DNA from: Streptomyces flavofungini
GTDB lineage: Bacteria; Actinomycetota; Actinomycetes; Streptomycetales; Streptomycetaceae
Assembly (NCBI RefSeq): GCF_030388665.1
Contig: NZ_CP128846.1
Coordinates: forward strand, 7,080,501 to 7,144,500
Direction: 5' to 3'
Length of the DNA stretch: 64,000 nucleotides
Both the position numbers and the translations under genes were made by a program. The first letter of the stretch is position 1; every line of letters begins with the position of its first letter. The notes under the pieces were generated by a model that did not search any database, had not been told where the DNA came from, and was given only the letters and a program-made list of their open reading frames with translations. Below are positions 42,204 through 56,658 of this stretch, piece after piece.

Positions 42204-42226
42204 ACGGTACGTCCGGGCACTGACAA
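42204..42226 (-). promoter_or_regulatory. RecA-NDp/PafBC-type promoter of ogt
   Basis: On the minus strand TTGTCAGTG (42226-42218), then 8 bases, then TACCGT (42209-42204). This fits the DNA-damage promoter pattern tTGTCRGTG-N8-TAnnnT known in mycobacteria. The ATG follows the -10 box by 7 bases. Confidence 0.75.
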
Positions 42227-42299
42227 CGCCGCGGGACGAGTCGCCCCGCGGCGCCGGCAGGCGAGGGGCCCGCCCTCGGTCGAGCCCTCGGCCGTCGTG

Positions 42300-43202
42300 T
42301 CAGTCGTTGATCGCCCTGCGCACCACATCGGGCTTGTTGGTGATGATGCCGTCCACCCCGAAGCCCGCGACCCGCCGCGCAGCGGCGGCCTCGTCCACGG
42401 TCCACGTGAAGATCTCCAGGCGCTTGCCGTGCACGCCCTTGAGCCGGTGGATCGCGGAGACGTAGTCGGCGGAGATGGACGTGTGCGTCGAGTTGATCTG
42501 GTCCGCGAACTTCGCGTACGCCGGGAGGTCGGCGGTCGCCGGCGTGCCCAGGAAGCCGGTCTTGATGTCGGGCCGCTGGGCGTGCACCTTCTTGATGCTG
42601 TCCGCGCTGAAGCTCTGGACGACCAGCTTGTTCTTGACGTGGTGGCGGTCCAGCCAGCCGGTCTTGCGCAGCACCCGCAGGGTGTCCCGCTCGATCCCGG
42701 GGTACAGCTCGGGCTTCTTGATCTCCAGGACGAGGCTCTGGTGGTTGCGCGAGACGCGGTTCATGTACTGCGTGAGCGTCGGCACGCGCGCGCCCTTGTA
42801 CTTCTCTCCGAACCAGCTGCCCGCGTCCAGTTTGGCGATCTCCGCCGCGGTGAAGTCTTTCACCTTCCACGGGGAGCGGTCGGGGAAGACCTCCTCGACG
42901 TTCGTCGTCCGCTTCAGGTTGTCGTCGTGGACGATCACCAGCACGCCGTCCTTGGTGCGCTGGACGTCGTTCTCGACCCAGCGGAAGCCCATGCGGGCGG
43001 CCTTGTCGATGGCGGCGAGGGTGTTCTCGGGGGCGTAGGCGGAGGCTCCGCGGTGGGCCACGACTGTGGGGTTCCTGTGCGCGGCGGAGGAGGCGGCGAC
43101 GGCGGTGTCGGCGGGGGCCTGGGCGCTGGCGGTGGAGGGGAGGACGAGTGCTCCTGCTCCCAGGAGTGCGGCGGTCGTGGCGGCTGCGGCGCGTGCGTGC
43201 AC
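42300..43202 (-). CDS. Secreted glycerophosphodiester phosphodiesterase
   Basis: A 300-residue exported GDPD enzyme that cleaves glycerophosphodiesters to glycerol 3-phosphate and an alcohol. The signal sequence is ARAAAATTAALLGAGALVL with an Ala cleavage region. Catalytic and metal residues are in VVAHRGASAYAPENTLAAI, GFRWVENDVQRTKDGVLVI and VHDDNLKRTT. GTG 43202 lies 5 bases after GAGGAG and is preferred to ATG 43220. Confidence 0.92.
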   Translation of the reverse strand: MHARAAAATTAALLGAGALVLPSTASAQAPADTAVAASSAAHRNPTVVAHRGASAYAPENTLAAIDKAARMGFRWVENDVQRTKDGVLVIVHDDNLKRTTNVEEVFPDRSPWKVKDFTAAEIAKLDAGSWFGEKYKGARVPTLTQYMNRVSRNHQSLVLEIKKPELYPGIERDTLRVLRKTGWLDRHHVKNKLVVQSFSADSIKKVHAQRPDIKTGFLGTPATADLPAYAKFADQINSTHTSISADYVSAIHRLKGVHGKRLEIFTWTVDEAAAARRVAGFGVDGIITNKPDVVRRAIND

Positions 43203-43475
43203 GGGTTCTCCTCGCGTCATGAGCTCACGGTTCGCTTGAGAATGACAGTGCACGGCCAACTACGGACAGGTACAGGATGGCCACACGTTGAACACCGGCC
43301 CCCCAAGTGGGGACCCCAGGCGCGGAACCCGTGTTTCTTTGCCGGAAAATCGGTCGTGCGTTCACGGCCGAGCCCTACTCTCACCTCAGCCGACGGCCCG
43401 TCACCCGGCCGTCGGCCGGAGGCAGGCAGGGTGATCCGGGACATCCAGGTACGACAGGCGGAAGGGCTACCGCTC

Positions 43476-44369
43476 ATGGAGGGCACGGTCGACGGCTTCA
43501 GCTACGGATTCGTCACGCCTGTGGTCGCCTATCTGATGGCCTGCCTGGGCGGCGCGCTCGGCCTGCGCTGCACCACGCGGTCACTGTTGGTCGCGCACTC
43601 CTGGCGGCCCGGCTGGCTCGCGCTCGGCTCGGCCGCCATCGGCTCGGGCATCTGGACGATGCACTTCATCGCGATGATGGGCTTCAGCGTCGAGGGGACC
43701 CCGATCCGCTACGACCGGGCGACGACCTTCGCGAGCCTGGCCGTCGCCATCGTCATGGTCGGCGTCGGGATCTTCATCGTCGGCTACCGCGGTGCCAGCG
43801 GAGCGGCGCTCTTCACCGGCGGCACCATCACAGGGCTCGGCATCGCCTCGATGCACTACCTGGGGATGGCCGGTATGCGTCTTGGCGGCAGGCTTCAGTA
43901 CAACACCCTGACCGTCGCCGCCTCCGTGGTGATCGCCGTCGTCGCCGCCATCGCCGCCCTCTGGGCCGCGGGTCAGGTCAGGGGCTTCCTGTGGAGCCTC
44001 GGCGCCAGCCTCGTCATGGGTCTCGCCGTCAGCGGCATGCACTACACCGGCATGGCCGCCGTCACCGTCCACCTGCACGGCCGCTCCACCGCGCCGCCCG
44101 GCGACTCGTCCCCCGAGATCCTCGCCCCCCTCATGGTCGGCCCCCTCGCCTTCCTGCTGCTCGCGGGCGTCATCGTGATGTTCGACCCGCTGATGATGCT
44201 GGGCAAGGCCGACCTGAAGGCCGCGGCGGCCCGCCCCGGCACCGCCTCCTACCCCGTGCCCCGCTCCGGCGACCGCCAGTTCGGCGGACACGTCAGCCGC
44301 CGGCCCGCCCCGCGCCCCAGCCGCAGGATCCGCCGCAGAACGGGGGCGCGGACACCGCAGAAGTGGTGA
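43476..44369 (+). CDS. MHYT-domain membrane sensor
   Basis: A 297-residue protein with about seven transmembrane helices and three MHYT units: WTMHFIAMMGF, ASMHYLGMAGM and SGMHYTGMAAV. The Met/His residues are proposed to bind copper and sense O2, CO or NO. No GGDEF, EAL or kinase domain is fused; instead the protein ends in a basic Arg/Pro-rich tail (PSRRIRRRTGARTPQKW). ATG 43476 follows GGAAGGG; an upstream GTG at 43431 after GGAGG is a possible longer start. Confidence 0.88.
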   Translation: MEGTVDGFSYGFVTPVVAYLMACLGGALGLRCTTRSLLVAHSWRPGWLALGSAAIGSGIWTMHFIAMMGFSVEGTPIRYDRATTFASLAVAIVMVGVGIFIVGYRGASGAALFTGGTITGLGIASMHYLGMAGMRLGGRLQYNTLTVAASVVIAVVAAIAALWAAGQVRGFLWSLGASLVMGLAVSGMHYTGMAAVTVHLHGRSTAPPGDSSPEILAPLMVGPLAFLLLAGVIVMFDPLMMLGKADLKAAAARPGTASYPVPRSGDRQFGGHVSRRPAPRPSRRIRRRTGARTPQKW

Positions 44370-55741: not shown

Positions 55742-55751
55742 GCGACTCAGC

Positions 55752-56477
55752 CTATAGCGGGGGCAGGGCGGGGAGGGAGCCGCCGGCCACGGTCAGTCCG
55801 GTGCCGTCGCGACGCCCGGCGAGCCAGCCCAGGAGGTCCGCCCGACGGCCGCTGACGGTGACGTCGACGGCCCGCTCGCGGCCCTCCTCGATCTGCTCCG
55901 GGGTGACGCCCTCGACGGCGCCCGTGGCGAGCACGCGGCCGTCGTCCTGCCGGATGGCCACGGCGGGCAGGCCGGGGTGGTTCCTGAAGCGCTGGGCGAG
56001 GAAGTCGATCTCGCGCTGGGTGAACTCCTCGGAGAGGTCCTCCAGCTCGTAGCCGACGCCGAGGTCCACGTGGTGCAGCTCCACCTCGATCCAGCGCCGG
56101 AACGGCACGTTGAAGGCGGAGTCCTTGACGCCGTTGCGCAGCTCCACGGTGCGGGACCAGTCCGCGGGGGCGGCGCCCTCGTCCTGGAAGCGGGCCGCGG
56201 ACTCCCGCAGGTCGGCGAGGTGCACCTCCAGCGGTCGTGGCGCGTCACGCTCGATGTCGGCGTCCCGCGCCTCCCCGCTGACGTACATGGGCCGCCCGGC
56301 CAGAACGTTCACCAGGGCGTCGGCGTTCCGCGCGACGTGCGCGAGGACGTGGCCGCGCGTCCAGCCGGGAAGCCGTGACGGCTCGGCCGTCGAAGCGTTG
56401 TCCAAGGAGGCGGCTGCGGCGAGCAGCCGGTCCGTCGCGTCACGTACAGACGCCAGGTCGCGCACATGATCAATCAT
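55752..56477 (-). CDS. Mycothiol-dependent maleylpyruvate isomerase-like protein
   Basis: A 241-residue protein of the DinB-like maleylpyruvate isomerase family: DATDRLLAAAASLDNASTAE, LPGWTRGHVLAHVARNADAL (the metal His and Trp), WIEVELHHVDLGVGYELEDL (two more His) and C-terminal TVSGRRADLLGWLAGR. Such enzymes use mycothiol, the actinobacterial low-molecular-weight thiol. ATG 56477 starts the conserved domain. Ends 10 bases upstream of the MBL gene start and may be in one operon with it. Confidence 0.9.
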   Translation of the reverse strand: MIDHVRDLASVRDATDRLLAAAASLDNASTAEPSRLPGWTRGHVLAHVARNADALVNVLAGRPMYVSGEARDADIERDAPRPLEVHLADLRESAARFQDEGAAPADWSRTVELRNGVKDSAFNVPFRRWIEVELHHVDLGVGYELEDLSEEFTQREIDFLAQRFRNHPGLPAVAIRQDDGRVLATGAVEGVTPEQIEEGRERAVDVTVSGRRADLLGWLAGRRDGTGLTVAGGSLPALPPL

Positions 56478-56635
56478 GCGCCCGACGATAGCTCCGCCAC
56501 ACGTTCGGGTGAAGGCGGTGGACGAGGCCCGCAAATCGAATGTCCGTGCTATAAGGTCGGTTGCGGCATCGGGCATTCTTGGTAGTCCGGGTTTCATCGG
56601 CCCCAGGGCCGCGAACCAGAGAATCCGGCCCGGCG

Positions 56636-56658
56636 TTGTCAGTGGGTCGCCCTAGTCT
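56636..56658 (+). promoter_or_regulatory. RecA-NDp/PafBC-type promoter of uvrA
   Basis: TTGTCAGTG (56636-56644), 8 bases (56645-56652), then TAGTCT (56653-56658). uvrA starts 55 bases downstream at GTG 56714, so this transcript has a short leader, unlike ogt and uvrB. Confidence 0.8.

Follow-up and report, generated by a model that had tools for sequence, protein, structure and literature searches.

Which damage signal reaches the DNA-repair genes of Streptomyces? Many members of the genus make DNA-damaging antibiotics, so how their repair is induced has practical interest. The question is raised here by a 64-kb stretch of the Streptomyces flavofungini genome, which we refer to as the window, and by three genes within it: uvrA, uvrB and the alkyltransferase gene ogt. 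The original prediction, made from the sequence alone, held that the three share one damage promoter that is not a LexA box, that this promoter matches the RecA-NDp promoter bound by the PafB-PafC heterodimer (PafBC) in mycobacteria, and that the result is a partly leaderless repair regulon. Our analysis makes it likely that a PafBC damage regulon operates throughout Streptomyces, distinct from the SOS response but overlapping it, and that part of it consists of leaderless mRNAs in which element, -10 box and start codon keep one fixed arrangement. Such a regulon would have been overlooked because TTGTCAGTG is read where mycobacteria prefer TTGTCGGTG, and its input at uvrA would differ from lineage to lineage, added to a LexA input that persists. 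Papers are cited by PMC number.

Three elements with one spacing

The element TTGTCAGTG-N8-TAnnnT has three exact matches in the window and none in 100 shuffled windows; at each, as had been predicted, the 9-mer is followed by exactly eight bases and then TAnnnT. The 9-mer itself occurs exactly three times, all within these elements, which confirms the claim that the window holds no other copy. Versions of the 9-mer with one mismatch were at chance level (4 observed vs 4.81 expected) and were set aside; it is therefore the complete element that carries the signal. All 3 sites also satisfy the mycobacterial PafBC motif, TGTC[G/A]G-10N-TA-3N-T (PMC8151990), and thus share both motif and spacing with the promoter type that had been proposed. 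Gene identities were assigned with NCBIfam models, and those expected of the three genes held, each with a score above cut-off (Table 1). Two of the three, uvrB and ogt, have the anticipated 7 bases between the -10 box and the ATG, while at uvrA 55 nucleotides (nt) separate the box from GTG 56714, which has a Shine-Dalgarno-like AAAGG ahead of it.

The element recurs in all 61 Streptomyces genomes searched, S. flavofungini included, with 1192 sites (median 16 per genome, range 3-40) against 3 for the reversed control. When the spacer was set to 7 in the same genomes, 6 sites were found (control 2), and a spacer of 9 gave 1 site (control 1). Across 1.095 Mb around uvrB, 79 of 83 copies of TTGTCAGTG had a spacer of 8 and one had a spacer of 7. 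The spacing of the element to the -10 box is strictly fixed in Streptomyces.

We located uvrB in 60 of the 61 genomes and compared regions from the 59 other than our own, some of them shortened by contig ends; regions without a tblastn match were excluded for ogt (5/59) and uvrA (9/59). For uvrB and ogt, elements were counted at up to 2 mismatches with spacers of 7-9 within 400 nt, and gaps were measured to the first open in-frame start codon. The uvrB element was present in 58 of the 59 regions, in 57 with a spacer of 8 and in 1 with a spacer of 7, and the remaining region (L193) shows, at the same position, a version with 3 mismatches. At ogt the element was found in 47 of 54 regions, and none was found in the other 7. 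Between the -10 box and the ATG lay 6-7 nt in 58/58 scored uvrB regions and in 44 of the 47 ogt regions with the element. Judged from these gaps, both uvrB and ogt keep a leaderless layout across the genus, the start sites themselves being predicted.

We consider it very probable that the three window sites are RecA-NDp promoters, in which PafB would read TTGTCAGTG exactly 8 bases before TAnnnT. If the mechanism is as in mycobacteria, damage would generate single-stranded DNA that binds the PafB-PafC heterodimer at its WYL domains, and active PafBC would link the element to the housekeeping sigma factor at domain 4 of the latter. We take this factor to be HrdB. The holoenzyme would thereby initiate even where a promoter has no usable -35 box. 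Should transcription begin at the A of the ATG, the uvrB and ogt mRNAs would be leaderless; the uvrA mRNA would have a leader, and the gene a second, LexA-type input. In the complex from M. smegmatis, the helix-turn-helix of PafB lies on the -26 motif and PafC on SigA, and single-stranded DNA activates (PMC11804915). With +1 at the A of the ATG and a 7-nt gap, the 9-mer of uvrB and ogt would span -30 to -22, which fits this motif. For Streptomyces we infer PafBC binding, sigma-factor adaptation, damage induction and the start sites alike.

Table 1. Promoter elements and repair genes in the window (coordinates are window positions)
Feature	Coordinates	Strand	Details
RecA-NDp/PafBC-type promoter of ogt (probable)	42204..42226	-	TTGTCAGTG-N8-TACCGT; 7 nt to ATG; leaderless layout
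ogt, methylated-DNA-protein-cysteine methyltransferase	41606..42196	-	TIGR00589, 7e-27, above cut-off; start by coding model
RecA-NDp/PafBC-type promoter of uvrB (probable)	44381..44403	+	TTGTCAGTG-N8-TACGGT; 7 nt to ATG; leaderless layout
uvrB, excinuclease ABC subunit B	44411..46579	+	NF003673 and TIGR00631, above cut-off
RecA-NDp/PafBC-type promoter of uvrA (probable)	56636..56658	+	TTGTCAGTG-N8-TAGTCT; 55 nt to GTG
LexA-like (SOS-like) box TCGAATGTCCGTGCTA	56536..56551	+	178 nt 5' of uvrA start; 12/16 vs TCGAACGTACGTTCGA
uvrA, excinuclease ABC subunit A	56714..59809	+	NF001503 and TIGR00630, above cut-off

The genomic site set and the pafBC locus

A search of the S. flavofungini genome (9.36 Mb, 4 contigs) with TTGTCRGTG-N8-TAnnnT, proposed along with the original prediction, found 29 sites, 26 of them with A, against 1 reversed-pattern control match, which is not a random frequency. 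By plain count, repair or replication genes lie downstream of 15 of the 29: recA, uvrA, uvrB, uvrD/pcrA, ogt, radA, ruvC, rarA, ung, rpsF-ssb, dnaX, and genes for a DinG/YoaA-like helicase, a DEAD helicase, a PD-(D/E)XK nuclease and an HHH_RecD2-domain protein. Genes at the 29 sites were predicted with a simple coding model, and most downstream proteins were scanned with profile models; the ruvC, rarA, pcrA and DinG/YoaA matches fall below the model cut-off, the pcrA and DinG/YoaA sequences end at the locus edge, and rpsF was identified by eye. The remaining downstream genes include MazG, PhoH, an extracytoplasmic function (ECF)-type sigma factor (L006), a WGR-domain protein, a HAD hydrolase, a methyltransferase and unknowns. 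These counts support the view that the element marks a set of sites across the genome with many repair genes among its targets. The genes downstream of three sites (L001, L017 and L027) had no Pfam match at 1e-5 and are candidate new damage-response genes.

An open start codon lies 6-10 nt past the -10 box at 12 of the 29 sites. The automatic assignment had given 13, from which the recA GTG at +7 (L004) was dropped because the recA start is 43 nt past the -10 box. Set against 21% leaderless in S. coelicolor (PMC4895711), a comparison of predicted with mapped starts, 12/29 gives p = 0.01. With this site set, and with the layout conserved at uvrB and ogt, the sequences support the proposal of a partly leaderless repair set.

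The regulator genes were also where they had been suggested to lie, near the proteasome genes. Both are found beyond pafA (C1:7591127) in the pup-proteasome locus, where the order is pafA, two FKBP-like genes, pafB (L032 11324-12340, 338 aa), pafC (L032 12359-13339, 326 aa), tatA, tatC, diacylglycerol kinase and helicase, with the FKBP and tat names assigned by eye. The DEAD helicase gene beside this pafBC-tat row carries one of the 29 sites. PafB matches PDB chains of PafB (7p5x and 9fnd) at 1.3e-50, and PafC matches a PDB chain of PafC at 1.6e-52; 7p5x is presumably the M. smegmatis protein. The stretch RMFERDK is identical in Streptomyces PafB and PDB PafB, and we take it for the presumed DNA-reading helix with the conserved arginines of PMC6789036. 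Streptomyces PafB aligns to PDB PafB in two separate pieces, and residues 38-56, which have no partner, form a 19-residue Gly/Ala-rich stretch ahead of this helix.

The system thus resembles that of M. tuberculosis and M. smegmatis in its promoter (TGTCRG-10-TA-3-T), in the repair genes downstream and in having pafBC in the pup-proteasome locus. As in mycobacteria, recA combines a RecA-NDp site with a LexA box, and several target genes overlap; M. smegmatis without pafBC shows a 37% decrease in the uvrB transcript (PMC5656591). The systems differ in the sixth base of the 9-mer, which in Streptomyces is mostly A and not G, and in the PafB segment that finds no partner.

S. venezuelae and the points against a PafBC regulon

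Several observations weigh against a PafBC regulon of this kind. Some of the 29 sites are ambiguous, and that at L029 (contig C2) resembles chance. At uvrA the RecA-NDp element (up to 1 mismatch) is present in 18 of 51 upstream regions, our own included, and missing in 33, and uvrA has a LexA-like box that is conserved in the genus. In 287 genomes of the phylum from outside the genus, the strict A form gave 27 matches vs 12 controls, and many genomes of the class that have PafC are poor in strict sites or lack them. Since nearly every genome of the class has a PafC-like match, the co-occurrence of regulator and motif is uninformative. In PMC9380542, the M. smegmatis PafBC motif is reported as not conserved in S. 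venezuelae. The same source does not settle whether Streptomyces can respond to damage independently of RecA and LexA, a question that gains named promoters and genes from the sites described here.

The statement on S. venezuelae can be compared with genomes of that group. Among 392 genus genomes searched, G592 encodes a GlgX 100% identical to the PDB chain of GlgX from S. venezuelae (PMC9530166; deposited codes include 7U3A, 7U3B and 7U3D), and all that can be said from this protein match is that G592 would be S. venezuelae or a very near relative. G592 has 20 TTGTCRGTG-N8-TAnnnT sites, G555 (GlgX 99%) has 23 and S. flavochromogenes (GlgX 97%) has 19, each with 0 controls. The genes behind the G592 sites include recA, ruvC, dnaX, rpsF-ssb, ogt, a beta-clamp gene (dnaN) and a Macro-domain protein gene. 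A start codon lies 6-7 nt past the -10 box in 15 of 40 loci from three genomes of the S. venezuelae group (all 20 sites of G592, 10/19 of G679 and 10/23 of G555). The beta-clamp gene of G592 (TIGR00663; L247 369-1493, minus strand) has a RecA-NDp promoter in leaderless layout; L225 of G555 has the same start, and an identical 23-base site occurs at G679:C17:9389.

The G592 recA gene carries the SOS box TCGAACATCCATTC at -166 (-162 in PMC9380542), and the LexA box of S. flavofungini recA equals this validated sequence letter for letter. The ruvC 'SOS box' of Table 1 in PMC9380542 is found in G592 (L246) as a reverse complement starting 6 nt inside ruvC, and a RecA-NDp site begins 63 nt upstream of the start codon. 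This site offers an alternative reading of ruvC induction.

An A at the sixth base was found in 204 of 243 TTGTCRGTG sites in nine Streptomyces genomes counted for both bases, and in 8 of 74 sites when 17 genomes from other families of the class were counted likewise. M. smegmatis prefers TGTCGG (PMC8151990); Streptomyces prefers A, as in TTGTCAGTG, where M. smegmatis prefers G. This difference in preference is a possible reason for the published negative, and it could explain why a motif search in S. venezuelae came out empty.

A RecA-NDp promoter has reportedly been described at recA of S. rimosus (Ahel, 2002, going by a title in a reference list). Such earlier Streptomyces reports, of S. 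rimosus recA and of S. coelicolor SCO6735 with orthologues in other species (PMC5087735), concern the same promoter type at single genes, whereas the sites here form a genome-wide and genus-wide set with a conserved leaderless layout. In the open-licence PMC literature searched, no described PafBC regulon of Streptomyces was found beyond these single-gene reports and the negative statement. The promoter kind is already known; what these searches did not find in print is the set spanning the genus, the conservation of its leaderless layout, the preference for A and the disagreement with the published negative.

Competing explanations and sites outside the genus

The sites could be real PafBC-type promoters that in Streptomyces drive mostly basal, rather than damage-induced, transcription, which we regard as improbable. 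Modest induction in S. venezuelae speaks for it, with uvrA just under the 2-fold cut-off and ruvC at 2.78-fold (PMC9380542). Against it, SCO6735 has a RecA-NDp promoter and is UV-induced in S. coelicolor (PMC5087735), and recA rises 9-fold with mitomycin C in S. venezuelae, though recA also has a LexA box (PMC9380542).

We give little credence to the idea that an alternative sigma factor or another WYL-type regulator reads the element in place of PafBC. Streptomyces has many sigma factors, the L006 site lies upstream of an ECF-type sigma factor gene, and other families of the class that have PafC often hold few strict sites, all of which would fit such a reader; the motif and spacing nevertheless equal those of mycobacterial PafBC, several targets overlap, and PafB and PafC homologues are present. 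Across 296 genomes of the phylum, more than 2 strict A-form sites occur only in the nine that belong to the genus. A PafC-like match was found in 192 of 196 class genomes, and the four without it hold 0, 1, 0 and 0 sites. As the A form is scarce outside the genus though PafC is near-universal, the strict motif is no simple PafBC marker across the class. When the search was made with the R form (TTGTCRGTG), some other families reached 10 to 119 sites.

It is very improbable that LexA alone gives the damage response of the three genes, with the shared element an ordinary housekeeping promoter, although uvrA lends this explanation some support. The number of matches of the uvrA box TCGAATGTCCGTGCTA to TCGAACGTACGTTCGA (Table 1) was equalled or bettered by 1.3% of 300 shuffles. 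This 16-letter yardstick was set before the published form, tCGAAC-N4-GNNCGa (PMC9380542), was compared; with that form the box agrees at 8/10 fixed letters by hand count. The LexA-like pattern CGAANGNNCGTKC, drawn after viewing the sequences, occurs upstream of uvrA in 44 of the 51 genus regions; 14 regions have both this pattern and the RecA-NDp element, and 3 have neither. In S. venezuelae, uvrA has a LexA chromatin immunoprecipitation peak and shows LexA binding by surface plasmon resonance (PMC9380542). Upstream of uvrB and ogt, however, the best LexA palindrome reaches 10/16 to TCGAACGTACGTTCGA, a score that shuffles match or exceed in 26% and 30% of cases. The claim that the shared promoter is 'not a LexA box' thus stands for uvrB and ogt and needs correcting for uvrA, which also has a LexA-like box, and for the latter gene we rejected the stronger version, 'no LexA box at all', given the box at 56536 and its counterparts in the genus. 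As for a housekeeping promoter, the 9-mer allows a single spacer (1192 vs 6 vs 1 sites for 8, 7 and 9), which argues against a general one.

In carrying a LexA box at recA and a putative one at uvrA, S. flavofungini is like the LexA/SOS regulon of S. venezuelae (PMC9380542); in having none at uvrB and ogt, it is unlike that regulon. The 15 repair and replication genes share only recA and ruvC with the selected members in Table 1 of PMC9380542.

Chance matches, or descent from a duplicated promoter, have a negligible probability: no support for chance was found beyond the chance-level one-mismatch 9-mer in the window, shuffled windows gave 0 matches and the genome 29 vs 1, the spacer counts point the same way, and flanks and spacer letters, judged by eye, differ among the 29 sites.

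The R-form search also turned up a dispersed repeat in another family of the class, where TTGTCRGTG-N8-TAnnnT has 63 sites in G787 and 119 in G803. In G787, 10 of the 20 places listed match TTGTCGGTGCCCGCCCGTAGGGT exactly; they are mostly intergenic, and a GC-rich stretch resembling a hairpin comes after each. The repeat loci viewed were L248-L254 and L256 (G787) and L255 (G771), and 6 of these 9, searched against Rfam, gave no match. The G787 repeat could be a spreader of PafBC-type promoters, a short-RNA family or a chance resemblance. One of its loci (L253) has a tandem array of three related sites at intervals of 219-220 bp.

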